Positions 3,279-27,252 of a DNA stretch of 32,304 nucleotides are shown piece after piece. This DNA comes from Oligoflexales bacterium (lineage in GTDB: Bacteria > Bdellovibrionota_B > Oligoflexia > Oligoflexales > RGVZ01): positions 1 through 32,304 of the forward strand of contig CANJQY010000013.1 in assembly GCA_947476525.1 (NCBI GenBank), written 5' to 3'. The notes beneath the pieces were generated by a model. The model worked only from the letters and a program-made list of their open reading frames with translations. It was not told the DNA's origin and made no database searches. Both the position numbers and the translations under genes were made by a program. Numbering within the stretch: the first letter of the stretch is position 1; each line of letters begins with the position of its first letter.

Positions 3279-3347
3279 GTCAATTCACTCCTTGTGTTTA
3301 GTCGTCTCATCCTTAAGACGACATGCTGTGATCTTCCGCCTCCACCA

Positions 3348-5712: not shown

Positions 5713-5734
5713 TCTGGATTTCGAGTCAAATGAA

Positions 5735-5769
5735 AACCCCCCTCTCCACGTTAGTGAGGAGGGGGGGTT
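5735..5769. terminator. G/C-rich terminator between the acetyltransferase and flagellin genes
   Basis: C-rich 5737-5747 pairs with G-rich 5758-5767 over about ten base pairs, with one G/T wobble and a bulge; A/T ends extend the stem. It lies between the 3' ends of two convergent genes. On the minus strand a short T run follows the stem, so it best fits the end of the flagellin message, but it may also stop the plus-strand transcript. Confidence 0.78.
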
Positions 5770-5814
5770 CTGTGGATTTTTCTACGTGCACGGAATTCTC
5801 ACAAAAACTCAGGT

Positions 5815-6657: not shown

Positions 6658-6818
6658 TAGAATGCCCCCCACACAGTTGGTCTTCTTTAAAATCGTACCA
6701 CAGCGGGTTTTTAATCACCAACTTTTGGGCGTAACAATACCTAATTTTTTTAAGAAAAAACCTTGTCTTCCTCCAATAAAATTGGATATATCCTATGAAT
6801 TCAGATAGTTGTGATGCG

Positions 6819-7835
6819 CTAAGGCGACACAATTTGGGGCAAGTCTTTTAACAAAGACTCCCCCCTGGTAGCCGCAATTTTCACGTTCCAGCCGAGGTGG
6901 CCGCTGGTCAACCAATACTCTATTTGATTATTATTCGAAAGCTTTCGGAATTGAACCACTTCCGAGCGAGAGCCTCCACCCACTAACTTGACTTCAGCAT
7001 CGGCCGGAGCGGCGCTCAAGCGAGCCTGTTCACCAGGGGATGCATAGGCGGTCGCCTTCAATTGATCAAATCGCTCAAACCAAGACGTGGCGGAAACCGC
7101 GGGCGCACCATCGCCTTCAACGCCTGTCCAAATAAGCACTCCCTTAGAATCGCGCTTTACATGGCTTAGAGTTAAAGATTTACCGCCTACAGATAAAGTC
7201 GCCGACTGAATCTCCTCGGGATCAAGATCCATAAAATTCCGTTCATAATAGCTAATTTCTGCTTTTTCAAAGTCTGAAATTAATTCAGCGCTAATTAGAA
7301 ATACGGCCTTATCAACCTGATTCTGCACGTAGGTATTGCGCGCCCCGTACATCTGCTTGCCAATGGCCAGTGAAAGCAATAGCGCCCCCCCAGAGTCTTT
7401 CACCATCAAGAATTTCTTGGAATCCTTCAGGCCAAACCCCGCCAACTGTTCGTTACCGATATTTGGTATGATTCTAATCGCACGAAATGGAGAGAACACA
7501 GCGAGGCTGTCTTTAAATTTTTTCGACGCCAAAAAATTCTGTGGAACTGGCGGCGAAGGTGAAGCTGCAAGGGAAGGCACAGCCTTCGCTCGAGTTACGT
7601 TGATCCACCAACTGTCGACCAAGTCTACACGCCGCGAAGCCTCAATCACGCCCTCCGGTGAAGTCAATTCTACTTTCGCAATCTGACTCAATTCCAAATT
7701 GATAATCGCTATTTGCATTTCCGCATCACCACCTACTGGACGTGACGCCCAGTAGGCGCCGCCAAGGCTCGCCGCCAAAACTAACCACCAACGCCACATG
7801 AGGTTTTCCCAACAAAGCTTCATACTGCACTTCAT
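6819..7835 (-). CDS. DUF4340-like membrane-anchored protein of the GldG-type ABC operon
   Basis: The 338-residue product has an N-terminal signal anchor (about residues 13-29, WRWWLVLAASLGGAYWAS), then a soluble part that should face the periplasm. Its features, including an ELSQIAKVELTSPEG opening, a lengthy WW-containing beta segment and the GFGLKDSKKFLMVK stretch, resemble DUF4340, a domain of unknown biochemistry usually found beside GldG-like ABC genes. I chose ATG 7835 because GGAGG lies six bases upstream and the start overlaps the stop of the preceding gldG-like gene as ATGA (7835-7832), which suggests coupled translation. The reading frame is open further upstream, but that would overlap the neighbour by about 100 bases. 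A second ATG at 7826 is possible. It is the last gene of a four-gene unit. Confidence 0.75.
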   Translation of the reverse strand: MKCSMKLCWENLMWRWWLVLAASLGGAYWASRPVGGDAEMQIAIINLELSQIAKVELTSPEGVIEASRRVDLVDSWWINVTRAKAVPSLAASPSPPVPQNFLASKKFKDSLAVFSPFRAIRIIPNIGNEQLAGFGLKDSKKFLMVKDSGGALLLSLAIGKQMYGARNTYVQNQVDKAVFLISAELISDFEKAEISYYERNFMDLDPEEIQSATLSVGGKSLTLSHVKRDSKGVLIWTGVEGDGAPAVSATSWFERFDQLKATAYASPGEQARLSAAPADAEVKLVGGGSRSEVVQFRKLSNNNQIEYWLTSGHLGWNVKIAATRGESLLKDLPQIVSP

Positions 7836-9805
7836 ACTGCACCTCCAATGCGAGGACGTCGCGATCGCCGTGTGGCTAAGGCTCCTGCAAGCAGCACAAG
7901 GCCCGGCACCAAGACGATCGTCCCGTAAAACCACGCTGCATCCTCTTTACTAGTGTGCCGAATCCGGATGTCTTCTTCCGACACGGGAACGCCTGTCACT
8001 AAGGTTCCTCCGACTAGCCACCTTAGGGAATCCACGAAGTATACTAAGTTACCTTGATTTTGAATGAGGGGATCACTGATAATGGAGGCGTCGGCAAATG
8101 CAACGACGCGCCCAGGAGGGGTCTCGTCAGGTTTGGCCCCAGGCAGTGGGCTCGGCTGTGCGCCTGATTTTGGGTCTGGTTTCGTGCTGACTTTTTGCTC
8201 CGCAACGGCTCCGAGAACCTTTGGCCCGCGAACTTCTTTGCCTTCATCGTATTTGAAATTACGATTTTCATCCACAAACGTATCCGAGAGGCTGCGTACC
8301 GTATCATTCACACTCCATTCTGGAACGTCTTGTTTCGTCGTAAAATAACCAGACCTAAGAGTTAAAATGGCAGCACCCTTCTGATCATTTCGAGCTAGTG
8401 TCTGCACGGATTCATGGGACGTGAAAACGGTGGTATATAAAAACCAAACATCGGCCGCCGATTTTGTTCCCGCATAGTGATTCGTCATATTTGCCAGCAT
8501 TTTCGGCTCAAAGGTCAATCCGATTGTACTCAGCCATTTTACTAGGGGGTCATGGGTTGCATCTCGAACATTCGGACTCATCGTGGTGCCTAAGGGCACA
8601 TCCACGTCGAGCAAAAGCATTAATTTACCATGACCCTCAACATATTTTTGAAGCACTTCCGCCTCAGCAATGAGAAATGGCAGGTCACCACCGGCGACCA
8701 CGACCGCGTCAGCATCGGCAGGAACCTCTTTGGTAGAGCCTTCGGATACACCGAAAAATTTCACTGTATAATTCAAAGTACGAAGGTACTTCTCTATTAA
8801 TTTAATAGATTTCAGTCCAAGACCTTCATCTGCTCCATTCCAGGTTAATTCGCCGTGCCCCCGGGTAAAGTACACTACTTTTCTTTTTTGTGTGGTTGCA
8901 AGCAACGCCTTTTGAAATTCTATGTCGATATTTTTGAGAGTCTTTTTGGCGGTAGACATCGTCAAGCCTAGGTCAAATCTTTCAGTATTCGAACCAGACT
9001 TCAGTACGACGTAACCATTGCGGTTAACCTTAAACTCCTCCGCCGATAATGGATTGATTTCCACGTCAAAGGTATTGACGCTTAAGTGAGGGCTTAAAGC
9101 TGATATGCCGCTAAAATAAAGATGCACATGGGATAAGACTTCGTTGCCAAGTGGAAAAAATAGTGCCACTGAAACGTCTTGCTCTAAGCTGCTTATCACT
9201 TTAGCGGTCGACTCGCTTGGCCGCGTTGTTTTGAGGTAGCTAAGGTCCCATGTTACGTTCTTTTTTACGGCCATGTAGTTTAGGGAGGCAATGATCACAA
9301 AAAGCATTGCCACTTTCAGGGCACTGCGCGCAGTAAGCCTCACTCTTTGTGGCTCGGCCATCTCTGCTCGACCATTGTTTAGCTGAGCCCATTCAATGCC
9401 AAATCCCATAAAAAAGCCAAAGACGGCCATCAAAACCCAAGACGCCAACAAAGCCTTCATCGCAAACGTATCAGGAAATGGTCGACTGCCCAATAATTTA
9501 AAATAAAGAAAGTAGAGGCCCGAAGCTCCCAATATTTGGGACTGCCAACAAATCGCCAGGCGCCAGCTCGGTAACTCACGGTTGTGCCCGCGAGCTCTCG
9601 CATCAAGAAGACTTTTGATGGCAAAGGCTATGCCCGCGACCATCAAACTAATTCCTACGGCCACCAACCACATATGACTTGGGGCACCAACGAAATATCT
9701 TTCGCCTGCAAAAACCAGGCCGATACCGGCGACAGTCGAAACCACTCTTAAATTTTCAACAAAATGGGTACTCATATAGCGACCTACTCTCTTCCTTTGA
9801 ATCAT
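7832..9805 (-). CDS. GldG-like ABC transporter auxiliary membrane protein
   Basis: A 657-residue membrane protein with five likely N-terminal membrane segments (within about residues 15-185), a large soluble domain and one C-terminal membrane helix (about 630-650) followed by a basic tail. The soluble domain (about 195-480) has features of the GldG/ABC_transp_aux family: a STAKVISSLEQDVSVALFFP strand-helix, an FDVEINPLSAEEF segment, a VVYFTRGHGELTW motif and an ADAVVVAGG strand, all typical of this family. A Pro/Lys-rich linker lies near residue 560. In gliding Bacteroidetes GldG acts with GldA and GldF; in other phyla the homologues have no settled role. It starts at ATG 9805 with AAGG close upstream; ATG 9775 is an alternative. 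It overlaps the next gene by four bases. Confidence 0.8.
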   Translation of the reverse strand: MIQRKRVGRYMSTHFVENLRVVSTVAGIGLVFAGERYFVGAPSHMWLVAVGISLMVAGIAFAIKSLLDARARGHNRELPSWRLAICWQSQILGASGLYFLYFKLLGSRPFPDTFAMKALLASWVLMAVFGFFMGFGIEWAQLNNGRAEMAEPQRVRLTARSALKVAMLFVIIASLNYMAVKKNVTWDLSYLKTTRPSESTAKVISSLEQDVSVALFFPLGNEVLSHVHLYFSGISALSPHLSVNTFDVEINPLSAEEFKVNRNGYVVLKSGSNTERFDLGLTMSTAKKTLKNIDIEFQKALLATTQKRKVVYFTRGHGELTWNGADEGLGLKSIKLIEKYLRTLNYTVKFFGVSEGSTKEVPADADAVVVAGGDLPFLIAEAEVLQKYVEGHGKLMLLLDVDVPLGTTMSPNVRDATHDPLVKWLSTIGLTFEPKMLANMTNHYAGTKSAADVWFLYTTVFTSHESVQTLARNDQKGAAILTLRSGYFTTKQDVPEWSVNDTVRSLSDTFVDENRNFKYDEGKEVRGPKVLGAVAEQKVSTKPDPKSGAQPSPLPGAKPDETPPGRVVAFADASIISDPLIQNQGNLVYFVDSLRWLVGGTLVTGVPVSEEDIRIRHTSKEDAAWFYGTIVLVPGLVLLAGALATRRSRRPRIGGAV

Positions 9806-9846
9806 CCATCCTTAAACGACCACACGCTGACCCGGATTATTTGGAT

Positions 9847-10575
9847 TTACCCCTGACACCTACGCCCGACAAGAGCTCGTGTCGAACACTCCAAAAAAAA
9901 CACAATTAAACCCAAATAAAATACAACATCTTTCAAATTTACTTGGCCATTGCTAAACGGAATGAAGTGCTCACTATGAATTGACATCCAATCAAACACG
10001 TCGCGAAACGGCTGATCGACCACTTTGGCGAGCATCCATAGCGTCAAGAAAATAACCGTTAAAAATGAGCCTCCCACTGCTGCAACCAACTGGTTTGGAG
10101 CTAGGGTCGAGGCAAACAAGGTGATCGCTATGGTTGAGGCTCCGAGCAGGGACAAACACAGGTAACCCGCAGCGATGTGGCCAAAAGATATTTTGCCGTG
10201 GATCATAACCAATGCAGGCATATAGAGTGAAACCACGTGCAAAATAATCGAAAAAAGAAAAGCCGATAAAAATTTACCGTATATTATTTGACGCTCTGAA
10301 ATTGGCGATGAAAACAATAGGACTATGGTTCCCATTTGCCGTTCTTCTGCCATTAAACGCATGGCAAGAAAAACTCCCGCAACCATGCTTATGCCGCTTG
10401 CGAAATAGAAAAAATCCGCGATGACTTCTGCCGATAATTTAGGCTCGTTACCGATTGCAAAGGAGTTAAATAACAGGCCTGTAATCATGAGCGATGCTGC
10501 CACAATAACATAGCCCATCCATGTGCTAAAAAATGCGCCTAGATCTCGCGACGCTATTTGCCACGTCTTATGCAT
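9847..10575 (-). CDS. ABC-2 type permease (GldF-like)
   Basis: A 242-residue membrane protein with about six transmembrane segments, starting with RDLGAFFSTWMGYVIVAASL and including FASGISMVAGVFLAMRLMAEERQMGTIVLLFSSPIS. That Glu-Glu-x-x-x-Gly-Thr-x-x-x-Leu-x-x-x-Pro-Ile coupling-helix motif is characteristic of ABC-2 permeases, including GldF and gliding-like transporters. It would pair with the ATPase upstream; the two genes overlap by eight bases (ATGCATAA), so translation is probably coupled. The cargo is unknown. The gene ends about 40 bases before the GldG-like start. It could be an export system or a mechanical complex; sequence alone cannot decide. Confidence 0.85.
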   Translation of the reverse strand: MHKTWQIASRDLGAFFSTWMGYVIVAASLMITGLLFNSFAIGNEPKLSAEVIADFFYFASGISMVAGVFLAMRLMAEERQMGTIVLLFSSPISERQIIYGKFLSAFLFSIILHVVSLYMPALVMIHGKISFGHIAAGYLCLSLLGASTIAITLFASTLAPNQLVAAVGGSFLTVIFLTLWMLAKVVDQPFRDVFDWMSIHSEHFIPFSNGQVNLKDVVFYLGLIVFFLECSTRALVGRRCQG

Positions 10576-11551
10576 GCTTCACCCCCTCAGGCTTGCCAGT
10601 CGATTTATTGGACGATTTGACCAAATTCATAAACACGGCCTCCAGTCCATTTCCCTCACGGCTCATCTCCAGCAGATCTGCACCGGAGGAGACGATACTT
10701 TTTGCAATTTGCGCTCGCACGTCACCATCACAATCGAGAGTCACAACGGAAATATTAGCGGAATTATTTTGTGCGCCTGCATTTTGTGTAATCCCAACCT
10801 GCCGCACACCCTTGATCGCCTCGAGGGCGGCTACGTTAACCTCTCCTTGAACTTCTGCTATAATCCGCATCGTGGTGACAAACGCCGTTTCCAATTCTGA
10901 TTCTTTGCCTTCCGCAACAAGGCGCCCCTTGTCAATAATTAGAATTCGGTCACAGGTCCGAGTAATCTCAGAAAGAATATGGCTAGACAAAATAACCGTA
11001 TGCTTACCGCGAAGCGACAAGATCAAGTCGCGCATTTCGACAATTTGTACAGGATCTAGGCCATTAATTGGCTCATCGAGGATGATTATACTGGGGTTGT
11101 GAATCAACGCTTGAGCAATACCTGCTCGCTGCCGAAATCCGTGGGACAACTCTCCAAGGCATTTCCATGCCACCTCTTCGAGATTTGTTTTCCGAAGCAC
11201 GTCGGAAATTCTACTTTCGATTTGATCGGCTGGAATATTTTTCAGTTTTGCCACAAAACGCAAATAGGGCACCACCTTCATTTCATCATAGAGGGGAGGC
11301 CGGTCGGGCAAATATCCGATCAGCTCACGAACTCGGTCTGCGTCAAATTCGACAGAAAATCCAGCCATTGATGCCTGGCCAGCAGACGGCAACAGAAAAG
11401 ATCCCAAAATTTTAAGGATTGTACTCTTTCCGGCTCCGTTAAGTCCAAGAAGGCCAACAATTTCACCTTCCTTGATTTTGAAACTTACATCTCGCACGGC
11501 TGCGTGTGGGCCGTAAAACTTGGAAAGACTTTGCACATCAATTAATGCCAT
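10568..11551 (-). CDS. ABC transporter ATP-binding protein (GldA-like)
   Basis: This 327-residue ATPase powers the permease encoded next. It has Walker A GLNGAGKST (residues 36-44), a signature in the form LSHGFRQR (135-142), Walker B IIILDE (155-160), a D-loop GLDP (164-167) and the switch histidine H191. The LSHGFRQR signature, in place of the usual LSGGQ, is close to the LSxGxRQR form of GldA-type and other ABC-2 ATPases. Residues past about 215 form a C-terminal extra domain also seen in that group. The start ATG 11551 is preceded by GGTGAG. It is the first gene of the four-gene unit, with a 174-base divergent spacer to the lipoprotein gene at 11726. Confidence 0.9.
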   Translation of the reverse strand: MALIDVQSLSKFYGPHAAVRDVSFKIKEGEIVGLLGLNGAGKSTILKILGSFLLPSAGQASMAGFSVEFDADRVRELIGYLPDRPPLYDEMKVVPYLRFVAKLKNIPADQIESRISDVLRKTNLEEVAWKCLGELSHGFRQRAGIAQALIHNPSIIILDEPINGLDPVQIVEMRDLILSLRGKHTVILSSHILSEITRTCDRILIIDKGRLVAEGKESELETAFVTTMRIIAEVQGEVNVAALEAIKGVRQVGITQNAGAQNNSANISVVTLDCDGDVRAQIAKSIVSSGADLLEMSREGNGLEAVFMNLVKSSNKSTGKPEGVKHA

Positions 11552-14731: not shown

Positions 14732-16225
14732 TCAACGCGCTAACGCAGCCGCACCCATCAACGATTTCAAGTCTTGGTCATTGAATGCAAGGCCGAGACC
14801 ACCGAACGGTATGGGTCCATTTTCCGGCAAATAGGTGACACTATTTCTCTTGCGCGTAATATCATCAACTCCGGCCATCAAGTAAATATGATCTAGGAAC
14901 AGTACCTGCATGTAAGCTTTTAGGCGAGCCACACGGCGCCATTCGTTGTCGTAGCTTTTGAAGTCAAAGGCTTCGAGTGAAAAACGAAGTTTGTCGTGAA
15001 AGAAATTGAAATCAACGGCACTACCGCCGGTGCTTTCAAAGAGTCCCATGCGCGCCGTGACGAAGTACCAGCTTTTTGCAAGCTGAAGATTAAATCGTGT
15101 GGCTTTTCTCTCGGTTACACGCTCTCTAATTTTTGTGCTCGATGGTCTGTTGGCTGTACCTGGATCAGTTTCAATAGATTCCGTTCGTGTGTCACTAACG
15201 CTTTCATTAACCGCTGTCACACCGACCAGGTAAAAACGGTCTGGTCGCATTCTCAACATGACATTCAAATAAGTCTGACCGGTATTGTCAGACCTTGCTT
15301 CTGCGTGTGCATCCATGGTGATAATCGTTTTTGTGGCTGGCGAGATCGCCTCCCTCAAATCTTTAAGCGTCGATTCAATTTCGACGATAGCCGCGTCATC
15401 ATTGACAAGTTTACCGATGGTGCCCTCGCCTTTTTCAATTTTATCGCTGATGAGCCTAATATTTTTGGTTGCGCCTTTGACCTCGCTCATGCTGTCGTCA
15501 AACGATGCAATGATGCGGTTTAAGCGTTCTCTGTTGGAATCATCGAGCACGTTATTTAAGTTGCCAGTAAATTCTTTAAAATTCGCAAGAGATTTATTTA
15601 AGTTGGTAACAATGTTCTTGATGCCTTGAGGATCATCGCCTACCGCCCCTCGAATCGCAGCTGATGATTTCCTGAGATCAAGAGAAACCATTTCAATATT
15701 ATCAATTATATTCGCAAAACTTTTCTCGCCTTGACTACTGCCCACCACATTCGCCAACGTGCCGGTAATTCTTTTGACATCTTTTCCGATATTGCCGAGC
15801 AAAGCCATCATACCCTGCATATCCATTTGATCTTCTGATCGCGGGATTAGCCCCCCGGCCGGAATATACTGGCCGGAATCACTGACCCGAACTATTTCAA
15901 GATAAACATCCCCTAAGAGGCCCCTGGTTCGAATTTCAATTTTACTACCGACCGGTAGTTTTATATGTCCGTCAATTTCGACTATAATTCTGGTCGTGGC
16001 GATCTCCAACTCAACTGAACGCACTTTACCGACAGTCACGCCGTTAGTTTTAACATGTGTTTTAGGGATGATTCCGCCAGCATCGCTAAGTATTGTGTAG
16101 TACTGCACGCGTTTTGAATCAGACAGCATGTTTGGATTCAAAACAAAAAGCATATACCCAAGCGTGAAAAGCGCCGTGAGCGTAAACACCCCAACTTTAA
16201 ATTCGTCACCCATTTGCTTCCACAT
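14732..16225 (-). CDS. mlaD: MlaD-like MCE protein with C-terminal barrel-like domain
   Basis: MCE proteins form rings that carry phospholipid across the envelope. The 497-residue protein has an inner-membrane anchor (about 11-30), an MCE domain (about 40-112: YYTILSDAGGIIPKTHVKTNG, VGKVRSVEL, then RTRGLLGDVYLEI), a long helical tail (about 130-300) and a C-terminal region (about 310-497) of alternating polar/hydrophobic strands. That last part holds LRMRPDRFYLVGVT, ARMGLFESTGGSAVDF, LRFSLEAFDF and AGVDD motifs known from the C-termini of MCE proteins in deltaproteobacterial-type lineages. It looks like an outer-membrane or beta-barrel domain and makes the protein far longer than E. coli MlaD (about 180). 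The start ATG 16225 has GGGAGA upstream; ATG 16213 is possible. It follows mlaF by 99 bases. Confidence 0.87.
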   Translation of the reverse strand: MWKQMGDEFKVGVFTLTALFTLGYMLFVLNPNMLSDSKRVQYYTILSDAGGIIPKTHVKTNGVTVGKVRSVELEIATTRIIVEIDGHIKLPVGSKIEIRTRGLLGDVYLEIVRVSDSGQYIPAGGLIPRSEDQMDMQGMMALLGNIGKDVKRITGTLANVVGSSQGEKSFANIIDNIEMVSLDLRKSSAAIRGAVGDDPQGIKNIVTNLNKSLANFKEFTGNLNNVLDDSNRERLNRIIASFDDSMSEVKGATKNIRLISDKIEKGEGTIGKLVNDDAAIVEIESTLKDLREAISPATKTIITMDAHAEARSDNTGQTYLNVMLRMRPDRFYLVGVTAVNESVSDTRTESIETDPGTANRPSSTKIRERVTERKATRFNLQLAKSWYFVTARMGLFESTGGSAVDFNFFHDKLRFSLEAFDFKSYDNEWRRVARLKAYMQVLFLDHIYLMAGVDDITRKRNSVTYLPENGPIPFGGLGLAFNDQDLKSLMGAAALAR

Positions 16226-16324: not shown

Positions 16325-17083
16325 TCAAAAAAACTCCATCGGCCCGTCAACTTTTCCACTGAAAAATTGCCTGACAACCCCGTCCTTCGAGGCTTTGAAG
16401 TCATTTGGTGTACCTGCCAAGGCAACTTTCCCTTGATACAAAAAAACGATATATTCGGCTGTCGCCAAAGCAGCTTTCAGGTCGTGAGAGATCACCACGG
16501 AGGTAATGTCGACAATATCTTTGTTTATTTTGACAATAAGTTCGTCAATCATCTCCGAGACGATGGGGTCCATGCCGGTGGTTGGTTCATCGTATAAAAT
16601 TATGGCCGGTTTCGCGACTAGCGCACGAGCCAATCCCACTCGCTTTTTCTCGCCGGTCGACAAATCTGTTGGATAGCGGTGCTGCATGTTTGGTAGCCCA
16701 ACTTGGGTCAGAGATTCTTCGACGCGTGTAAGCATTGCGGCCAAGGGCATTTTCGAGTGCTCTTTTAGGGGGAAAATTACATTTTGACCGATTGTCAGAG
16801 AGTCAAACAAGGCGGCTTGTTGAAATAGCATGCCAAAATTCTTTCGGTATTGACGCAGCTCCTCATGAGTAAAGTCAGTGATGTCCTGATCGTTCACAAT
16901 CACGCGGCCGTCATCAGGCTTCAAAAGGCCCATGATGTGCTTGATCGTAACAGATTTTCCTTCGCCGGATTTTCCGACAATAAACGTTATTTTACCGCGT
17001 GGAATGGTCAAATTCAAATGGTCCAAAACAACTCGGCTTCCAAATTTCTTCGTAATATTTTTGAATTCTATCGCTGCCGACAT
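16325..17083 (-). CDS. mlaF: MlaF-like ABC ATPase of the phospholipid transporter
   Basis: This 252-residue ATPase drives the MlaE permease. It has Walker A GKSGEGKS (residues 37-44), a Q-loop in MLFQQAALFDSLT (about 86-98), signature LSTGEKKR (141-148), Walker B IILYDE (161-166), a D-loop GMDP and the switch His-200. The GKSGxGKS Walker A, the FQxxALFDSLT motif and the LYDEPTTGMDP form are characteristic of the Mla/Mce/Tgd group. The gene starts one base after the mlaE stop (TGAaATG), so translation is coupled. No mlaB or mlaC is present in the window. Confidence 0.93.
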   Translation of the reverse strand: MSAAIEFKNITKKFGSRVVLDHLNLTIPRGKITFIVGKSGEGKSVTIKHIMGLLKPDDGRVIVNDQDITDFTHEELRQYRKNFGMLFQQAALFDSLTIGQNVIFPLKEHSKMPLAAMLTRVEESLTQVGLPNMQHRYPTDLSTGEKKRVGLARALVAKPAIILYDEPTTGMDPIVSEMIDELIVKINKDIVDITSVVISHDLKAALATAEYIVFLYQGKVALAGTPNDFKASKDGVVRQFFSGKVDGPMEFF

Positions 17084-17084
17084 T

Positions 17085-17888
17085 TCAAAACCTCAACTGT
17101 ATGAACGTAATGCACACGTCCACCAATAATATTGTTAACAATGTTGCTACCACCGACCGCGTCGTCGCTTGGCCTACACCTTTTGCCCCACCGTGAGCAT
17201 TCAATCCGTAACGACAGGCGATAGCGGCGATTATGAACGAAAAAACGAACGACTTTTCCAAACCATTTGCAATATCTCTTGGCTCGACCATCCACTTGAT
17301 TCGATCAACAAACACGCCGACGTCTACGTCAAAAACGGCTACTCCGGTAATATACGCACCAAAAATTCCTATAAAAATAAAAATTCCGCAGAGTAGCGGG
17401 ATGATGCACATTGATGCGATCACGCGAGGCACCACGAGGTAATTAATAGGATCAACGGCCATGGCCTCCATGGCGTCCACTTGCTCATTGACACGCATTG
17501 TTGCAATCTCAGCAGTCATCGAAGACCCTGCACGCCCGGTCAAAAGAAATGCGGTCATGAGAGGTGCCATCTCGCGAGTGAGAGCCTTGGCCGTGGCTGC
17601 GCCCATGATGCTTTCAGCCCTAAATATTTGAAAAATTCCACCGATCTGCAATGCGAAAACCGCACCGGTAAAAAAGCCTGTAAGAATAATAATGCTTAAA
17701 GACTGATTGCCGACGAATTCTAGCTGTTGAAAAATCAAGTCCCAACGAATCGGAGGCGTCAAGGCCTGGCGAAAAATTTCGTATATATACAGACAAAATG
17801 CGCCCAAAGCTCGAAACTGCGACGTCACATAACTGCCTATAACGGTGATAGCAGCAACCAAATAATTTTTTTCTACTGCCGTTGTCAA
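17085..17888 (-). CDS. mlaE: MlaE-like permease of the phospholipid transporter
   Basis: The 267-residue inner-membrane protein has the MlaE core: FVGNQSLSIIILTGFFTGAVFALQ, then LTREMAPLMTAFLLTGRAGSSMTAEIATMRVNEQVDAM, in which the conserved Gly-Arg-x-Gly and Glu residues contact the ATPase. Five or six membrane segments follow the usual layout. It starts at TTG 17888, chosen because GGAGG stands eight bases upstream and no ATG or GTG fits. Together with mlaF and mlaD it forms an operon for lipid transport between inner and outer membranes. A 144-base gap separates it from the ArsA-like gene upstream, so it may have its own promoter, although I could not identify one. Confidence 0.92.
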   Translation of the reverse strand: MTTAVEKNYLVAAITVIGSYVTSQFRALGAFCLYIYEIFRQALTPPIRWDLIFQQLEFVGNQSLSIIILTGFFTGAVFALQIGGIFQIFRAESIMGAATAKALTREMAPLMTAFLLTGRAGSSMTAEIATMRVNEQVDAMEAMAVDPINYLVVPRVIASMCIIPLLCGIFIFIGIFGAYITGVAVFDVDVGVFVDRIKWMVEPRDIANGLEKSFVFSFIIAAIACRYGLNAHGGAKGVGQATTRSVVATLLTILLVDVCITFIQLRF

Positions 17889-18032
17889 AACAAACGCCTC
17901 CAGATTTACTCACTTTTACTAGCTCTCACTAATAATTGTAGCTCAATATGGGGAAAATTTTGCTAGGCAGTTTCTACACACTTTGCAGATCGTAGCGAAC
18001 GGACAGACAAATTGATAGCGTTCGGCGGAGCA

Positions 18033-19175
18033 TCATTTTTGAGATTGCGCAAAAAATTTTGAAAACTTCAATATTCCAAGCATACTATGAATGTCGTCCA
18101 CCTGATCATCGATCCGAAACTCCCATGCATTCACATTTTTTTTGGATTCATGAATATCTTTTGAAAGACTAGCAATCACCTGATCCTCAAGGTGGCCTCG
18201 CGCGCGCAGTATTGCGCCGTCAGTGCCTGTTGCATCTTCCAAAGCACTGCGCACGACTCGCGGCAAACAGCGATTAAAAACAGCGCCTTCTAGGTTATAG
18301 CCGAGCCCGTGCAGTTCGCGCGTTAAGGATTTAGCAGCGCGGGCTGCAGCCTTATGTGGGACCGCGATAAGAACAAAACTGGTTGAATCGCGTTTAATAA
18401 TCTCCAAAACTCTTTCACCTGACCGATGAAAGCCATCAATCACTTCTTGCATCAATAAAATAAACTCGCCAAATGACTTCAAGGCACCAAACCCTGTGAC
18501 ACTAGTCACCCCGCCCAACATCTTCTCGCTAATCGTTGCAAGACCGCCAAGCCCAATACGACCCGCAAAAACCACGGGTTTCAGCAGCTTGGCGACCACT
18601 TTATTTTCGACGAAGCCGGAGAGCACGTTAGGTCGCGCCAAAAAATCCAATGCATGGGCGTCTGGTGGCGTGTCTAAGACGATCAAGTCCCAATCAGGAC
18701 TCTCGGCCAGCTCTTGTAGCCGTGCCAGTGCCATGTATTCCAACGGCCCACTGAGGTTGGTCGAGGCTGACACGTACAACGGGTCTCGCAGTATTCGGTC
18801 TGCGATCCTAGGCGACGGTGCGTGCTTACGCACCATCGAATCAAAAACCGCTTTTTGGTCAAGCATCGCTGCGTGGAGGCGTCCAGTTATCAAAGCATCG
18901 TCAGGGAAATGAACGGGCCTAAGTTCATGCCCTAGTTCAATTCCGAGGGCTGCCGCCAGTCGTTTTGCGGGGTCAATACTGAGCAACGCAACTCTGCGCC
19001 CAAGGCGCGCCGCATGGATCGCTAACGCCACTGACGACGTGGTCTTGCCGACGCCTCCAGCGCCGATAACAATGATGACCCGCTGGCTTCGCAGCATTTG
19101 CTCTATTGGCGTGCCTTCGACCGCGACAAATGTTGCTTTTTGGGAACCCACCTCAGCATTGAGTTTATCTGACAT
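18033..19175 (-). CDS. ArsA/Get3-like ATPase (pair member 1)
   Basis: A 380-residue P-loop ATPase of the ArsA/Get3 group, which dimerises around ATP. It carries the deviant Walker A GAGGVGKTT (residues 38-46), a LSIDPAKRLAAALG switch-I-like stretch and the motif LDTPPDAHALDFL, the form typical of the bacterial paired ArsA-like proteins. A long helical middle (about 185-290) matches the region that in Get3 binds clients. No arsenic-binding Cys triad and no arsenite pump gene are visible, so an arsenic role is unlikely. The start ATG 19175 overlaps the upstream ArsA-like gene by eleven bases. It is the third gene of the kinase operon. The partner cargo is unknown. Confidence 0.85.
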   Translation of the reverse strand: MSDKLNAEVGSQKATFVAVEGTPIEQMLRSQRVIIVIGAGGVGKTTSSVALAIHAARLGRRVALLSIDPAKRLAAALGIELGHELRPVHFPDDALITGRLHAAMLDQKAVFDSMVRKHAPSPRIADRILRDPLYVSASTNLSGPLEYMALARLQELAESPDWDLIVLDTPPDAHALDFLARPNVLSGFVENKVVAKLLKPVVFAGRIGLGGLATISEKMLGGVTSVTGFGALKSFGEFILLMQEVIDGFHRSGERVLEIIKRDSTSFVLIAVPHKAAARAAKSLTRELHGLGYNLEGAVFNRCLPRVVRSALEDATGTDGAILRARGHLEDQVIASLSKDIHESKKNVNAWEFRIDDQVDDIHSMLGILKFSKFFAQSQK

Positions 19176-20121
19176 TAGCCCCTCCTAAAAATAAATCCAC
19201 GGCTTCCGTTGTGATTGGCTCAGCCACCGCTCCTAGCTCCGGCAGGTACCACACGGGCAAATTTTCCAATACTGCTTGACGCGCAATTCCACCTGAATAT
19301 TTTTTAAATGCGAGCCGTTGGCGTTCGCGACGAGCCGCCATAAACTGCGTGGCCAAATTACCAAGTTTTGCGCCAAAGGCTAAAGCGTCCTGGACGCCTT
19401 CTTTTTGAGCGGTTGGCGCCTCAGCGAGCTCAGGAAGCGAACGATTCATAACGATTCCTGCCAAATTTACTGGAGATTTCTCGGCCAAAATCGGCAAAAA
19501 TTCAAGAGCCTCGCTAATCACCAAGTCTTCTGCCACCGCCACATAAAACATTGAGCACTGGTTTTTGTCTTCCAACCATTTTTTGACGGCTGTCGTGTGG
19601 TGAACAATTGGCCCGGCCAATCCAGATTGTAATACAGCGTCGGGCGTGGTCATCAGGCTCAGGAAGTGGCCCGAGGCATAGGAATCCATGATGATTAAAT
19701 CAGGCCGCGTCTTTTTTGAAAGATTCTGTGCAAAGTACAACCGCCCGAGCAACATCAATTCACCGAAGCCAGGTATCGCAGTAAACAAACTATGCACAAT
19801 TTTGTTCGAAAGTACGACGTCCAGCAAATGCGATTTCATCAGATGGTTCGAAACATAGTCTCTAAAGTTTCCGGCCGCACTGAAGTTTGCAACCCCCAAT
19901 AAGCCGATCCACTGCTCTTCATGGCCAATTTCGGCAAAACCTAAAAGCGGACCAATTTGCGCAACCGAAGATTGCTCTACGACCAGCACTCGCCGGCCAA
20001 GTGCGACGGCCCTCCTTGCCAACATACAGCTGACCAAGGTTTTGCCGATGCCCCCTTTGCCGGTAACCAAAATTAATTTTCGTTCGCGTAATAATGTGTC
20101 GATAGCGGTAACCAAAATCAA
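19165..20121 (-). CDS. ArsA/Get3-like ATPase (pair member 2)
   Basis: A 318-residue ArsA/Get3-type ATPase with deviant Walker A GKGGIGKT (residues 21-28). The switch-II position reads MDSYASGH instead of the usual DTAPTGH, so one Thr and one Pro of the family motif are replaced. It also has a PGFGELMLLGRLYF helix. It lacks the C-terminal parts found in full-length Get3. The start is TTG 20121 overlapping the kinase stop as TTGA (20121-20118), with AGGA a few bases upstream; a second TTG at 20115 is possible. Coupled translation with the kinase and with the next ATPase is therefore likely. Paired, unequal ArsA-like proteins are known from other bacteria, such as the adjacent Rv3679/Rv3680 pair of mycobacteria. 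Confidence 0.82.
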   Translation of the reverse strand: MILVTAIDTLLRERKLILVTGKGGIGKTLVSCMLARRAVALGRRVLVVEQSSVAQIGPLLGFAEIGHEEQWIGLLGVANFSAAGNFRDYVSNHLMKSHLLDVVLSNKIVHSLFTAIPGFGELMLLGRLYFAQNLSKKTRPDLIIMDSYASGHFLSLMTTPDAVLQSGLAGPIVHHTTAVKKWLEDKNQCSMFYVAVAEDLVISEALEFLPILAEKSPVNLAGIVMNRSLPELAEAPTAQKEGVQDALAFGAKLGNLATQFMAARRERQRLAFKKYSGGIARQAVLENLPVWYLPELGAVAEPITTEAVDLFLGGANVR

Positions 20122-23100
20122 ATTCCTAATCTTTTAACCGTCAAAAAATAGCGCGGCAAGGCTTTGTTTTGCAACGCAGACTCTAGTAGTGCCTCCGGAG
20201 TCCCCTCGCGTCCAGGCCCTGTAGGCACAGTTTCGCCGATTGATGAAGAAGAAGGGAGATCCACACTAATTCGACTTGTATCATAGCTAACCAGAAATAT
20301 CTGTGCGGAATTCATCACGGCGAAAATTTCCCAATAGCGCAAATCTCTACCGTCTTTAAGACGCAACGACGTTTGATTGAACGCCGCGAGGCGATTTTCT
20401 GTACCAATCACCACCGGACGAGCCGTTCCATAGTGCCCCGACGAGACAAAGTTCGAATCGTGATCAAATAAACTATAGGAAAACATAATTTCGTCCATTC
20501 TCGCCGTGTGTGCCGAATTTTTTAACAATTCTTGAATGGCAATCCGCAAGTCTATAACCTCACTCTTAACCTGCCCCCGAATGCTAGCCGATTCCCTTAT
20601 CAAATAGATCTGATAGAACAATTGCTGAGCGAGCATTTCTCGCTCCAAAGCTTCCCCTTTTAGACAGCAGTACACAACAACATATTGCCCACCACCCCAA
20701 TCAAGACCCAAAAACCAGCTAGACTCCCGATCAATGCGAAGTGTCCCATGCAGCTTAATTTCCAAATTTGATGCTGCCTCAAAAAACGACCCCCCAGTAG
20801 TATTCATGCCAATCGGAATAGCGCGCCGGGTTTCTTCCAAGTACCCGATAACTGGTGAAAATTTCTGCGACATCAACAGTCCCATTTGAGCGGCAAGGGC
20901 ATCGAAATCCCGTTTTTTTCTGGCCAGTTCGTTTTGAACCTCAGGGCCCAAATTTGTGACGACAATTATTCCAATGGTCTCACCACCCAAGCGAATTGGC
21001 ACTAAAACAAGCAGCGAAACGCCGCCTCTGCTCTGCTGGCTGGATTCACCTCGGTCTGACTGGCCTGTGCCAACGGCCATAGTGGCGTCATTTTTATCGG
21101 TGGCGGAGCTGCTTTGGACTGCAGAATTATTCACGTCTTGTGGCTGTGATTCTTGGGGGCGAAGCGTCTGGCCAAGGTCGATTATGGCTGTAGTGATGTT
21201 GTCGTCTGAAAAACTTGACGAAGGTTTCGCGTCCGATACATGCACGGACAAGGTTTGGCGAATTGTAAAATACGGCGCCACATCGCGTAAGATTTTTTCT
21301 GTAACCTCCCCACTCAACGAAGAATGCACGACCGGATCGCCTTTGATTTGGTTGCCTAGGTACACGGCTATTTTGCAATCCGGAATGAGCTGCTCAATGA
21401 ACTTCAGTGAGGCCATCAAATCTTCACGAAAGTCTGACTGGGTTCTAAATGCTCGAATAATGCCATCGAAGTTTTTAAGCCCAAGGTTTAGATCCTCGCC
21501 CGGATTGGTCCCGGCAACTGAACGATCATCTCGCTCGCGGCTAGACTTGTAACGACCTAAATCTCGACTCGATTTACCGGTTCTTAAAATGTGCGAAGCG
21601 AGTCCGTCCAGGCCATGTTCTGTGGCCATTTTGTGGGATATTTTAAGATAATCAGTTCTTCTCCCTGCTTTTAGCGAGAGCAAGTGCCTGCCGAACCAAA
21701 AATATGTTAGTACTTGGCAAATAACGTTATTCTCACTTTTCGCTGACAAGAGTGCTTCGTCATATAGTTTATTAAAATTATTTTTACCCATCAAATCGGC
21801 ACACCGCGCCTCAATCAACAATTGACACGGACGGCCGCCGGACTGCCAAGCCTGGCGGCGAATGGTTTCGTTTAGGCTAACGATCCAAGCGGCAGTCATT
21901 TTAAATCCTGATTCAGACTGCCTATTTTCAGCTTTAAAAAGCATTGGAAATACTAACGTAAAAATACCAATAAGATCCATTTGCCACACTTCGAATACTT
22001 CGTTGTCTTGTTGACTCATAATAAATTTTGTAACTTTCTGAAATTGCACCTGAGTTTGTGCCATCTCGCCGCGAGCAAAGAGTTGCATTGTCATAACAAT
22101 ATCCGTGAATAAATCCTCGCGCGCTCCGACGCTCCGTCGACGGCGAATAAATTCTTCACCAATGCCAACCAACCTCTGCCTACGATTCTGCAATAGCATG
22201 CCAAACATCAAAATTGCCATTGATACACTGCTAAGATGATTGCGCGTTGGGATGGCCATTCGAACACTTGCGTTAAGGGCTTCCGCATTTTCGATTTTGC
22301 CGGCAGTCAAATCAAAATACTGCTTAAACACCAATAGGTTTACATACGCGAGACCATCATGTTCTTGATAGATGTTATTGAAGGCCTCCTTTAGATGCAA
22401 CGCCGAGTCTTCCCGTCGACCCTTAATGTAATCAATAGTCGTCGCTCGAATTAAGGACACGTAGCCCGATGTTCGGGAAAACGAAAATTCGCTAGCAAAC
22501 CGGTCCGCCAAATCAAACAAGCGGTAGGATGCTGTGGTAAAACCCAAACCTGCTAATTGGCCTGCTCTGTCGGCCGCAATTCGTATGGCGGTTTGGGCGG
22601 AAGCCTGACCCCCGAAAACCAATTTCACCCCTTGGTCTACAGCACTCCTAGCCTGCATACCATTTTGACGAGACAAAACTACGGCGAAGAGACGGTATAA
22701 TTTCGCGGCAGAAAAAATTGGCTCCTCGACACCACTTTCACTGCGATAGTTCACTTTACAACGGTCCAAGCCTGCGCTCCATGGGCCACTTTCCCAGCCC
22801 ATAGTGAGCCCATCAACCAAAAGCCCCCAGTAGTACCGTATGGTTGACAATAGGTGAGTCTCAGGCTTAGGCGCACCTAATGCTTGCAAACCTTTTGAAA
22901 TAAGTTTTTTGGCATCAGAAATATTGCCACAAACATTATTCAATTCAGCTGATTTGGCTGCGGCGGCCGCGTATTCGAACTTAGACATTGGTAAATTTAG
23001 CCAGTGTGCATATTGTGTTAAGGCCACCTTGAAATTCGACCGCGCAGTATTTATATCGGCAAGATTTTCCACGACATGCCGCTCTGCGAATGCGCCAAAT

Positions 23101-25523
23101 TCTGATGGACCACCTTTGGAAATGACATCACTAGCAATACTGTAGTAGTTGTATGCGGCGGTCCAACCTTGTTTTTTACGCATGGCAGCACCCGCGGCCA
23201 TATTGAATTGCAGACACAAAGCCTCGAAATCATGGTTTCTAACTCCCCCATGCCGACTCTTATTTAGGTGCCGCACGAGCGAGAAAAGTACCTGGTCCTG
23301 AGGTTTTTCAACGCTGGCTAATAGCTGCCTTGCAATTTTTTCGTGAATAATCGCACGCTCCGCGTGATCGATGACATTGTATATGGCGTCTCTTACCTTT
23401 TTGTGGACAAAAATATAAACCTTGCCTAACTGCCTCAATCCTTCAGTTTCGTGGTGTCTGACGATAACACCGCCACTTAGCGCACGATCAATTAACCTTA
23501 TGACATTTGTGGCCGAATTTTGGCCCGCCAAAAGCAGCAATTCGTAATGGAATGACATTCCATTGCAAGCGGCGGCTCGAAGGATAGCAAGATCCACACC
23601 CTTAAATTCCCCAAGGGAACCGAGTACCAAATCAACCGCGTTCAGACTAATGACTGCGCCCTGAATCTCACGAATGTCCCATTCCCACAACATCGTCTTT
23701 CGATTTTGAGTGATCATGTCTAGGGCTACCATGCGTCTGGTTAGCTCCACTAGGTGCATTGGGACGCCACCGCTACGTGCTAACAAATACTGGACCAAAT
23801 CAAATCCCACCAGCTGATTTTGGCGCAACATCGAACTCACAAGCCTGCTAGAGGTGTCATATTCTAAGGCCTTCAAGTCTATTTCCGTGTAGCGTAATTT
23901 GAGGCCTTTGAATTTTTCAATAAATTTTTCAAATTCACTATCCACGCCTTCGACATCCAGACGACACGCAATGACGAGATGATATTGGTGTGAATTAGCG
24001 TTCGAAAAAATCTGAGTGATCAGTGCCAAACTTTTTGGATCCGCCCAGTGCACGTCGTCAAGGATCATAACCATCGGCTGTGTGTCTGGAGCCAAACTTC
24101 GAGCAAAATCGGCGAAGGCTTTCGCAAATCTTGGATAATTATCGCCGTCACTTTCAAGGCCGTCGGCAGGCTCCGGGATTTCGGCGAGAAAAGGCTTTAA
24201 ACCCGGAACTACGTTGGCCACGAGGTGAGCCTCGGGGCCAATAATTTGCTTAATTTTCTTCGATAATAAATCCGCTTCCACTGGATTAATACGGATAATT
24301 TTTACGAGTAGTTCGTTAAATGCGTTGGCTAGTGCGTTAAATGGCAAGGAGTTTTCGTGTTGAGTGAAAAGCCCAGCGACATACTGAATTCTCATGGCCG
24401 AGAGTTTGCTTTTGAATTCGTCTAGAACCCTAGTTTTTCCTATGCCTGCGCCACCGGTCACAACCGTGATTCTAGCCCGTCCCTTGTGGCTGGAAACTTG
24501 TTTATACTCGTTTAAAATGGCGTTAATTTCAGCGTCTCGACCCGTGATCGGAAGTTGCGCAGAAACGGCAAAAAACTCGTCTTTCAGAGCTAGTGGAAAA
24601 CTTGGCACCAGGCTCGGATCAAGCTCCCAAGCCGCTTTTGCTTTAAGCAAATCGGCCGACAACGAAAATGCCGTTTGATAGCGATCGTCAGGCCGTTTTT
24701 CTAAGAGCTTGTGAATAATTTGAGCGACCACCAGTGGCACATCTGGACGAACATTTCGGATTGATTCAGGCACCGAGGACTGGTGCGCCCTCTCTAACTC
24801 CTCGCGGTTTGCCCCGTGAAACGGCGGGCTCCCCGTAAGGATTTCATAAAGCACGCACCCCAAAGAATACAAGTCAACGCGGTGATCGGAAACCCCAAAA
24901 CCAGTGGCCGAAAGCTCGGGAGCCATATACAACGGGGTACCGGCTTTTTCTTGGTTTGCGTCGTCGTCACGCCCAATCATCGAGCCAAGGCGCGCGACTC
25001 CAAAATCCAGCACCTGCACGTGGACCCCTCGGTCACCTCCAACCACTTGGCTAACGATAATATTGTGGGGTTTAATGTCACTATGAATGATGTTTTTTCC
25101 ATGCGTATAATCCAGCGCATCTGCCACCTGTAAGCCTACCTGAAACAGGAAATGTAGGTCCTTGCGGCCTTCATGTTGGATGCTCTGATTTAGACTTTTG
25201 CCGCGTGCAAAATCCATGATGATGTAGTAGCCACCCGTAAAATCCTTTGATTCTTCGCCCTGAAAAATGCCGAGCTCATGGAATGCGATGATATTCGAAT
25301 GATACAGCTGACTCATGAGCGAGGCTTCTTTTTGAAAACGCAGAAGGTCAGCAGACGTCATTTTTTGTGTGCGATGGATCACTTTGATGGCGACATTGTT
25401 CGAAGGATCTTCAACATCAAAAGCTTGATACACCTCCCCCATGCCACCACGCCCAAGCTCAAGCTCAATGCAGTAGCGTTGGCCAATCCATTTGCCAATA
25501 AATTTTTTGGAAGGTGCGCTCAC
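20118..25523 (-). CDS. Giant Ser/Thr kinase with AAA-type NTPase, helical repeats, GAF-like and degenerate SpoIIE-like domains
   Basis: The 1801-residue protein starts with a Hanks-type kinase (about 15-290): glycine loop LGRGGMGEVY (23-32), Lys-47, catalytic HSDIKPHN (147-154, Ser where most kinases have Arg), DFG 173-175 and APE 201-203. An ATPase follows (about 325-640) with Walker A GGAGIGKT (357-364) and Walker B MVMILDD (484-490) followed by VHWADP, as in AAA_16/signal-transduction NTPases. Helical, TPR-like sequence fills about 750-1320. A GAF-like domain (about 1360-1554) holds a Gln/Ser-rich insert near 1455-1500. The last 245 residues look like a SpoIIE/PP2C fold that has lost key residues. 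The layout recalls HstK-type kinases of Anabaena, whose C-terminus is a histidine kinase instead. The start is GTG 25523 with GGAG five bases upstream. It heads the operon with two ArsA-like ATPases. The signal it senses is unknown. Confidence 0.88.
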   Translation of the reverse strand: MSAPSKKFIGKWIGQRYCIELELGRGGMGEVYQAFDVEDPSNNVAIKVIHRTQKMTSADLLRFQKEASLMSQLYHSNIIAFHELGIFQGEESKDFTGGYYIIMDFARGKSLNQSIQHEGRKDLHFLFQVGLQVADALDYTHGKNIIHSDIKPHNIIVSQVVGGDRGVHVQVLDFGVARLGSMIGRDDDANQEKAGTPLYMAPELSATGFGVSDHRVDLYSLGCVLYEILTGSPPFHGANREELERAHQSSVPESIRNVRPDVPLVVAQIIHKLLEKRPDDRYQTAFSLSADLLKAKAAWELDPSLVPSFPLALKDEFFAVSAQLPITGRDAEINAILNEYKQVSSHKGRARITVVTGGAGIGKTRVLDEFKSKLSAMRIQYVAGLFTQHENSLPFNALANAFNELLVKIIRINPVEADLLSKKIKQIIGPEAHLVANVVPGLKPFLAEIPEPADGLESDGDNYPRFAKAFADFARSLAPDTQPMVMILDDVHWADPKSLALITQIFSNANSHQYHLVIACRLDVEGVDSEFEKFIEKFKGLKLRYTEIDLKALEYDTSSRLVSSMLRQNQLVGFDLVQYLLARSGGVPMHLVELTRRMVALDMITQNRKTMLWEWDIREIQGAVISLNAVDLVLGSLGEFKGVDLAILRAAACNGMSFHYELLLLAGQNSATNVIRLIDRALSGGVIVRHHETEGLRQLGKVYIFVHKKVRDAIYNVIDHAERAIIHEKIARQLLASVEKPQDQVLFSLVRHLNKSRHGGVRNHDFEALCLQFNMAAGAAMRKKQGWTAAYNYYSIASDVISKGGPSEFGAFAERHVVENLADINTARSNFKVALTQYAHWLNLPMSKFEYAAAAAKSAELNNVCGNISDAKKLISKGLQALGAPKPETHLLSTIRYYWGLLVDGLTMGWESGPWSAGLDRCKVNYRSESGVEEPIFSAAKLYRLFAVVLSRQNGMQARSAVDQGVKLVFGGQASAQTAIRIAADRAGQLAGLGFTTASYRLFDLADRFASEFSFSRTSGYVSLIRATTIDYIKGRREDSALHLKEAFNNIYQEHDGLAYVNLLVFKQYFDLTAGKIENAEALNASVRMAIPTRNHLSSVSMAILMFGMLLQNRRQRLVGIGEEFIRRRRSVGAREDLFTDIVMTMQLFARGEMAQTQVQFQKVTKFIMSQQDNEVFEVWQMDLIGIFTLVFPMLFKAENRQSESGFKMTAAWIVSLNETIRRQAWQSGGRPCQLLIEARCADLMGKNNFNKLYDEALLSAKSENNVICQVLTYFWFGRHLLSLKAGRRTDYLKISHKMATEHGLDGLASHILRTGKSSRDLGRYKSSRERDDRSVAGTNPGEDLNLGLKNFDGIIRAFRTQSDFREDLMASLKFIEQLIPDCKIAVYLGNQIKGDPVVHSSLSGEVTEKILRDVAPYFTIRQTLSVHVSDAKPSSSFSDDNITTAIIDLGQTLRPQESQPQDVNNSAVQSSSATDKNDATMAVGTGQSDRGESSQQSRGGVSLLVLVPIRLGGETIGIIVVTNLGPEVQNELARKKRDFDALAAQMGLLMSQKFSPVIGYLEETRRAIPIGMNTTGGSFFEAASNLEIKLHGTLRIDRESSWFLGLDWGGGQYVVVYCCLKGEALEREMLAQQLFYQIYLIRESASIRGQVKSEVIDLRIAIQELLKNSAHTARMDEIMFSYSLFDHDSNFVSSGHYGTARPVVIGTENRLAAFNQTSLRLKDGRDLRYWEIFAVMNSAQIFLVSYDTSRISVDLPSSSSIGETVPTGPGREGTPEALLESALQNKALPRYFLTVKRLGI

Positions 25524-25758: not shown

Positions 25759-27252
25759 ATGACCGAGCCTATGTCCACACCAATTCCGGTACTTGCGAAC
25801 TTCCACGCCGAGGGTGTCGACACCATTCGCCACTGTAAAATTATTGGCACTCTAGGCCCATCTTCGTCGGATGAAGAGACGCTTCGCGCTCTGATATTGG
25901 GAGGATTGAACATTGCACGTCTCAACTTCAGTCACGGCGACCACGCGATGCACAAAAAGAACATTGACCTTGTTCGACGAATATCAGCCGATACGGGACA
26001 TCCTGTGGCTATCCTTCAGGATCTTCAGGGCCCGAAAATTCGTTGCGGAAAACTCATAGGTGGAAGCCTCGAAATAAAAACAGGTGAATCGTATACTTTA
26101 GTATATGCTGCCGAACAAACGGACCCGAAAATTATTCCCATCGACTACAAAGATTTGGTAAAGGACGTTTCTGTCGGCCAACGCGTGATGATGGACGACG
26201 GGAATTTTATATTGAGAATTGAAGCCATCAACGGACAAAATGTAGTGGTTCGGGTTGAATTCGGTGGAATATTGAAACCTCGCAAAGGGGTCAATTTTCC
26301 AGACGCAAAACTATCACTTCCCGCAATGACGGAAAAGGACAGCAAAGACCTGCTTTTTGGCATTCAAAACGGGGTTGACTACGTCGCACTTTCATTTGTT
26401 CAAGACCCCGCCGATATTCTTGGAATCAAAAAAATGATCAAGGCCATGGGGTCTGATATTCCCGTAATCGCAAAAATTGAAAAGCTTCCCGCCATCGATA
26501 CCATTAACGAAATTGCACAGGTTGCTGACGGTTTAATGGTGGCTCGTGGTGACCTCGGCGTGGAGGGTGACGTGGAACGTGTGCCCGGATTCCAACGCTT
26601 GATTCTCGCTGCCGGAGCTCGCTATGCGAAACCCGTGATTGTGGCTACCCAAATGCTTGAATCGATGATTGAAAACCCCCAAGCCACTCTTGCAGAGGTC
26701 GCCGACGTCGCCAATGCAGTGCTGGACGGAGCTGATTGCATTATGCTTTCAGGCGAAGTCGCCTCTGGAAAGTACCCGCTCGAATGCGTCGAAACGATGG
26801 TCGACATTATCCGAGAAGTCGAACACTGGACATTTAAACGTCCAGACCGCTATTCTGCGACAGAACTGCGCAAGGATACAACCTCGTGGGAAGACCACGA
26901 AGCGATCGCGCGTGCCGCGTGCGAAGCGGCCGACTCCCTCAACGCAAAGGCCATTGTTGTGTTAACGCTAACTGGTAGTATTGCGCGCAGTATTGCCAAG
27001 TGGCGTCCAAAAACACCTATTATCGCAATATCGCCACGCCCCGAGGTTGTACATAGGATGAGTTTGATTTGGGGCGTTTACGGCATGCAAAACAAATTGT
27101 TCTACAACACAGATGCATTGCTCGCAGAACTTCCGGACCAGCTTAAAAAATTAGGTCTTGTTGCTTCGGGGGACACGATTGTTATTACTGCCGGGATTCC
27201 AATTAATCATGTGCGTCCCACCAATATGATTAAAATCAATCGGATACCATAG
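25759..27252 (+). CDS. pyk: Pyruvate kinase
   Basis: Pyruvate kinase makes pyruvate and ATP from phosphoenolpyruvate and ADP, the last step of glycolysis, in the cytoplasm. The 497-residue protein has the full set of motifs: KIIGTLGPSS, NIARLNFSHGDH (substrate and potassium loop), LQDLQGPKIR, a B domain (about 105-190), DYVALSFVQ, the catalytic-lysine motif VIAKIEKLPAIDTINEI (the family signature), VARGDLGVE with the metal-binding Glu/Asp, and ATQMLESMI. The C-terminal domain (about 375-497) looks complete. After GDLGVE the sequence reads GDVERVP where most enzymes have a Pro-Ala-Glu-Glu-Val-Pro type stretch, a small variation. The start ATG 25759 has GAGGAG upstream. Its last 102 bases overlap the convergent GGDEF gene. 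Confidence 0.96.
   Translation: MTEPMSTPIPVLANFHAEGVDTIRHCKIIGTLGPSSSDEETLRALILGGLNIARLNFSHGDHAMHKKNIDLVRRISADTGHPVAILQDLQGPKIRCGKLIGGSLEIKTGESYTLVYAAEQTDPKIIPIDYKDLVKDVSVGQRVMMDDGNFILRIEAINGQNVVVRVEFGGILKPRKGVNFPDAKLSLPAMTEKDSKDLLFGIQNGVDYVALSFVQDPADILGIKKMIKAMGSDIPVIAKIEKLPAIDTINEIAQVADGLMVARGDLGVEGDVERVPGFQRLILAAGARYAKPVIVATQMLESMIENPQATLAEVADVANAVLDGADCIMLSGEVASGKYPLECVETMVDIIREVEHWTFKRPDRYSATELRKDTTSWEDHEAIARAACEAADSLNAKAIVVLTLTGSIARSIAKWRPKTPIIAISPRPEVVHRMSLIWGVYGMQNKLFYNTDALLAELPDQLKKLGLVASGDTIVITAGIPINHVRPTNMIKINRIP

Follow-up and report, generated by a model that had tools for sequence, protein, structure and literature searches.

BagA/BagB-type ATPases in a conserved tatA–mlaEFD gene block of Bdellovibrionota, with a giant kinase as a lineage-specific neighbor

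BagA and BagB (Rv3679 and Rv3680) of Mycobacterium tuberculosis are encoded by adjacent genes and have been structurally characterized (PDB 6BS3–6BS5). They form the two chains of 6BS3, an entry titled 'bacterial Get3-like A and B'. Mycobacterial BagAB has been tied to tolerance of glycerol and nitric oxide, to killing by citrate, and to survival of drug treatment, and no BagAB client is named in these reports (PMC10597346, PMC12216072). A pair from the same two clades, with the same division of motifs, is encoded in a 32,304-nt stretch of DNA (the window) corresponding to contig C13 of a draft genome (G000; 2.74 Mb, 176 contigs, 88% complete) of the Oligoflexales, an order in class Oligoflexia, phylum Bdellovibrionota. 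Among named relatives, the closest is an Oligoflexales genome in which the second ATPase is 73% identical. Unlike the M. tuberculosis genes, the pair in this other phylum is associated with tatA, mlaEFD, and a kinase gene.

Three open reading frames on the minus strand form the center of the window, exactly as the initial annotation described them: a kinase of 1801 residues (25523 to 20118, GTG start), an ATPase of 318 residues (20121 to 19165, TTG start), and an ATPase of 380 residues (19175 to 18033, ATG start). The reported overlaps of 4 nt (TTGA) at the first junction and 11 nt at the second are present, as are the 144 nt between the second ATPase gene and mlaE. Scanning the window for Rfam families and tRNAs returns no matches, and promoter and terminator scans return results near chance level. 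Gene order was surveyed in 56 genomes, against 58 listed by a phylum-level search, which gives nearly full coverage of that listing.

The two ATPases belong to the BagA/BagB (Rv3679/Rv3680) type according to tree, motifs, and fold, so the ATPase pair of the system that the initial annotation took to be undescribed is of a known kind. In a tree of 74 rows, for which the Rv3679 and Rv3680 sequences used were partial, Rv3679 groups with the BagA rows (support 97/94) and Rv3680 falls inside the BagB clade (100/99). Among solved structures, BagB matches Rv3680 best (4e-51), and Rv3679 ranks second for the BagA profile (2e-35). A structure model of BagB (pLDDT 79) has 6bs3_B as its top match (E 2.4e-20), followed by many Get3 structures, and the window and M. 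tuberculosis BagB proteins share the same fold. Both window proteins miss the NCBIfam equivalog cut-offs (BagA, NF053622, 57.2 of 400 bits; BagB, NF053621, 226.3 of 521 bits); by sequence, the pair is placed in the same broad group as BagA/BagB and outside the mycobacterial equivalog.

Pfam assigns both proteins to ArsA_ATPase (BagA 8.6e-17, BagB 3.4e-24), a family name that would favor a role as arsenical or other anion pump ATPases. That role is extremely improbable here: the tree sets BagA and BagB apart from the true ArsA of L150 (support 100/98), no ars genes were found in the window, and the two proteins come from separate genes with asymmetric motifs. Likeness to Get3/TRC40 extends to the fold, the P-loop ATPase, and, as examined in BagB, a hydrophobic helical subdomain. 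BagB carries a hydrophobic two-helix insert (residues 186–260; 18396..18620, minus strand) at the place of the Get3 client-binding subdomain, with a GRAVY of 0.62 compared with 0.09 for BagB overall. Whereas Get3 is encoded by one gene, the window has an asymmetric two-gene pair. The CXXC zinc motif is absent from the window BagA and BagB sequences, which also miss the Get3 NCBIfam cut-off (TIGR00345; 55 and 83.9 of 135 bits).

In ATPases of the Get3/MinD/NifH type, a signature lysine acts on the nucleotide of the partner subunit, and a switch-I aspartate activates water. BagA (19165..20121, minus strand) has the signature lysine in GKGGIGKT and is missing the switch-I DPA; BagB (18033..19175, minus strand) has GAGGVGKT, without the signature lysine, and retains SIDPAKR. 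When rows were assigned to the A or B class by overall BLAST score, independently of the motifs scored, the GKGG signature lysine of the P-loop was present in 82/82 A and 0/109 B rows, and the switch-I DPA in 109/109 B and 1/82 A rows. The single DPA-bearing A row most likely represents the true L150 ArsA, which the score placed with A and the tree places with ArsA. The split is identical in the 6BS3 chains. Since the signature lysine is confined to A and DPA to B, the pair likely has one competent, composite ATP site, located in BagB and completed by BagA.

The P-loop lysine itself is replaced by arginine in 12 of the 82 A rows. In the sister order and in L050 (L047–L049, L050, L146), BagA reads GKGGxGR(T/S) at this position and, because of the arginine, may not itself hydrolyze ATP.

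Across the phylum, the older unit is tatA-bagA-bagB-mlaE-mlaF-mlaD. Of the 45 genomes that have BagB, 42 place it next to BagA; in G019, G034, and G037 the two genes are split between contigs. With adjacency defined as the same strand and within about 1 kb, BagB is followed by MlaE in 39 of the 45. Among the six genomes without this link, contigs end near BagB in G003 and G033, G019 could not be placed, and MlaE is missing beside BagB in G004, G010, and G018. The small open reading frame in the kinase–BagA gap of relatives is TatA, with Pfam TatA_B_E matches above cut-off, and TatA lies directly 5′ of BagA in 33/46 genomes, including 11 of the 12 sister-order genomes searched. In three genomes where BagAB was not found (G012, G020, G024), TatA directly precedes MlaE. 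The window's genus has tatA elsewhere (contig C41 of G000, with TatC on C58), best explained by its loss from the block site.

In the sister order, TatA–BagA and BagB–MlaE abut or overlap, with overlaps of 4 nt and gaps of 0–3 nt. The 144-nt gap in the window (17889..18032, minus strand), in which a minus-strand terminator scan reports no terminator-like site, is therefore no boundary: BagB–MlaE is the older link, and the gap, taken at the outset to allow separate control, does not split off the Mla genes. Identity of BagB between the two orders is only 26–27%, and the block is nonetheless kept. When 15 window genes were used as probes, only BagA, BagB, MlaE, MlaF, and MlaD were found in the sister-order loci. 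Because the block is kept while its flanks differ, general conservation of gene order is an unlikely cause. The Mla genes thus belong with the ATPase pair, and the envelope role suggested at the outset is likely.

Two further arrangements were observed. In a 1.2-Mb genome of the class (L050, 8029–9230), TatA and BagA overlap by 1 nt, and BagB and MlaE were not found. A second copy of BagAB in family f8 (L041, 8505–10516; L149, 90–2083) has no TatA, kinase, or Mla gene adjoining it.

The transporter genes of the window encode an MlaE permease (17085..17888, minus strand; Pfam MlaE 1.4e-75), an MlaF ABC ATPase (16325..17083, minus strand), and an MlaD/MCE protein of 497 residues (14732..16225, minus strand; Pfam MlaD 6e-15, Mtu_fam_mce 9e-19). 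MlaE-, MlaF-, and MlaD-type subunits are likewise encoded in one operon in the Escherichia coli MlaFEDB–MlaC system. In contrast to that system, there is no MlaC here, MlaB was not found, and MlaF stops before the C-terminal extension of its E. coli counterpart; the block of this phylum has BagAB and TatA as neighbors instead. MlaC (PF05494) was detected in 0/56 genomes, with positive controls in E. coli and Caulobacter. MlaB/STAS_2 (PF13466) was not found in the 88%-complete G000, and above the curated cut-off STAS_2 is in no Oligoflexales genome that has BagAB. These absences indicate an MlaEFD-type MCE transporter rather than a full E. coli-type Mla system.

With MlaB and the MlaF extension missing, BagAB could have a place as a cytoplasmic substitute. 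BagAB, together with the kinase, might thus be a regulator or assembly factor of MlaFED in the place of E. coli MlaB, a reading we consider rather unlikely. BagB–MlaE is the most constant link of the block, and the patterns of STAS_2 and MlaC described above fit such a role. In E. coli, the missing extension is needed for MlaF to stay assembled with MlaE (PMC7367683). Several observations point the other way: most Oligoflexales have a second MlaE locus without adjoining BagAB, several sister-order genomes combine STAS_2 with BagAB, and BagAB occurs elsewhere with no Mla gene adjoining. Many MCE systems also work without MlaB.

Beyond the phylum the BagAB pair is widespread, chiefly in genomes that carry the labels Myxococcota, Myxococcales, or Deltaproteobacteria, and nearly all of 67 such loci are without Mla genes beside the pair. 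Mla is therefore not the only partner of BagAB. TatA near BagAB in three distant loci (L080, L106, L127) was considered as wider support and was not counted; in L080 and L127 a long opposite-strand open reading frame lies between TatA and BagAB. Two other neighbors recur in the distant loci. A PhaR-like gene (KRYTNRKLYDT) lies near BagAB on the same strand in 15 of the 67 (L076, L080, L091, L098, L100, L102, L113–L115, L118, L122, L124, L127, L129, L130), mostly upstream and, in L080 and L127, downstream. Five loci, such as L126 (781–2094, labelled Bdellovibrio), have a minus-strand gene beside BagAB that is trigger-factor-like as read from the sequence of L126.

The giant protein encoded upstream of bagA (20118..25523, minus strand) combines a Ser/Thr kinase, a STAND-type NTPase, a helical repeat, and GAF-like and PP2C-like parts. 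The protein kinase domain spans residues 21–284 (24672..25463, minus strand; Pfam Pkinase 4.6e-42), and the AAA_16 NTPase domain spans residues 326–517 (23973..24548, minus strand; 8.5e-25). Kinase residues K47, E66, D149, N154, and D173-F174-G175, as well as the Walker A lysine K363, are invariant in an alignment of 13 relatives; kinase and NTPase are accordingly predicted to be active. The closest described architecture is the TOMM kinase/cyclase fusion (TIGR03903) of the Kinase-AAA_16 type, which likewise has a kinase domain, an AAA-type NTPase, and a long repeat region. The window protein differs in terminating in GAF-like and PP2C-like parts, and it scores 204 against a cut-off of 706.

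A structure model of the C-terminal 422 residues (pLDDT 79) comprises these two parts. The GAF-like part (residues 1380–1564; 20832..21386, minus strand) is proposed from the model and weak Pfam GAF matches, the best being 0.0028 in a relative and 0.1 in the window protein. The kinase and NTPase domains of the initial annotation are thus borne out by Pfam, and its GAF domain, weakly matched by Pfam, fits the model. The remaining part (residues 1578–1746; 20286..20792, minus strand), assigned by Foldseek and alignment, matches RsbX, RssB, and SpoIIE structures with probabilities of 0.99–1.00 and E-values of only about 1e-3 to 1e-2 (RsbX 3w40: E 8.5e-4, probability 1.00). The predicted fold is thus shared with the PP2C domains of RsbX, RsbU, SpoIIE, and RssB; in contrast to these, the window part has no sequence-profile match and no conserved catalytic aspartates. 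Searching the C-terminal sequence against solved structures gave no match. With the motifs placed by eye, no aspartate of this region is invariant over 19 relatives. Because the catalytic aspartate is unconserved, the part is predicted to be inactive as a phosphatase, and in the model the C-terminus looks like an inactive SpoIIE/RsbX-type fold, a putative pseudophosphatase.

The kinase adjoins BagA in 23 of the 27 genomes with both BagA and the kinase C-terminal domain detected; presence scored by the profile of this domain is a lower bound, and the kinase of G024 (L161) was missed by it. Kinase, BagA, and BagB are thus conserved neighbors within the order, and the survey of related genomes leaves the originally proposed association standing. 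All four members of the sister genus, and no others, lack this adjacency; in the three of their loci that were read, the kinase has stayed next to pyruvate kinase. The 4-nt kinase–BagA overlap occurs only in the window's genus, in 4 of 5 members with the junction measured. Where other families have the kinase beside BagA, 133–1354 nt separate the two, usually with tatA inside. Since those families hold tatA in the gap, the simplest view is that the overlap is derived and followed the loss of tatA from the site; the tight coupling described at the outset is real as an overlap and fails as an ancestral sign.

A dedicated three-component kinase–ATPase–ATPase signaling system, as first envisaged, would draw on the frequent adjacency of kinase and BagA and on the overlap in the window's genus. 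It is nevertheless very unlikely: BagAB–Mla persists without the kinase in the sister order and across most of family f11, the sister genus has the kinase parted from BagAB, and L161 (G024) has the order kinase-TatA-MlaE-MlaF-MlaD with BagAB lost. Rather than a core member, the kinase is the least constant one, a later neighbor dispensable for the rest of the block, and is best read as a lineage-specific regulator or input.

In the sister-genus loci read (L134, 11348–14357; also L133 and L141), the kinase is followed by an open reading frame of 93–100 residues without a Pfam match, then by an HflX-like GTPase and a PGI-like gene.

Taken together with the conserved block, the BagA/BagB identity suggests, tentatively and with somewhat less than even confidence, a Get3-type ATPase that serves co-encoded inner-membrane machines within an old envelope operon, with the kinase as an accessory. 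Beyond the computed family, motifs, synteny, and fold, we infer the heterodimer, its client, and the phosphorylation target as follows. BagA and BagB would form an asymmetric heterodimer like Rv3679–Rv3680, BagB providing the nucleotide pocket and catalytic aspartate and BagA the signature lysine across the interface. ATP-driven opening and closing, as in Get3, would expose a hydrophobic helical cradle contributed mainly by BagB, which may hold and deliver a hydrophobic segment or stabilize a membrane complex. The most likely clients would be the co-encoded membrane proteins TatA, MlaD, and MlaE. The kinase could act as an accessory switch of Oligoflexales that takes in signals by way of its NTPase, repeat, and GAF-like parts, with BagAB, MlaF, or a docked partner as its phosphorylation target.

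Conserved operons can also mean shared regulation only. A serious rival, though on balance somewhat unlikely, is that these are merely co-expressed envelope genes, with BagAB, TatA, Mla, and the kinase acting separately. The members do vary independently, BagAB occurring without the kinase and the kinase without BagAB; TatA is relocated in the window's genus, and BagAB is duplicated without Mla. Retention of BagA in L050, where BagB was not found, is a further point against BagAB serving its operon, as are the missing CXXC motif, the rarity of Mla genes beside BagAB outside the phylum, and the dispensability of the kinase. Simple co-expression accounts less readily for the gene order and 4-nt overlaps shared by two taxonomic orders whose flanking genes otherwise differ.

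The preferred reading, in which BagAB serves the membrane machines of its own operon, has a stricter form: a Get3-type heterodimer dedicated to the biogenesis or regulation of the Tat pore protein and the MCE transporter, controlled by the giant kinase with its dead phosphatase domain. This form is doubtful; if true, it would mean that an envelope operon encodes a GET-like route in bacteria. The presence of tatA and mlaEFD in a conserved operon offers concrete, testable partners for BagAB, and the context would tie bacterial Get3-like ATPases to membrane-protein or lipid-transporter assembly. A literature search of incomplete coverage returned no relevant report linking BagAB to Mla or TatA; neither the operon context nor the kinase turned up in it, an absence that is no proof of novelty.

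The outer parts of the window contain other genes. Flagellar genes (FlgE, FliS, FliD, and flagellin; 1219–6672) are followed by an ABC-2 type exporter with auxiliary proteins (6819–11551). Upstream of the kinase gene and divergent from it lies pyruvate kinase (pyk; 25759..27252, plus strand), a constant upstream neighbor of the kinase gene within the order that presumably lies outside the system. The pyk gene and a GGDEF gene are convergent, and their 3′ ends overlap by about 100 nt (27151–27252); a convergent overlap of 87–111 nt between these genes recurs in L031, L032, L034, L039, L042, and L044.
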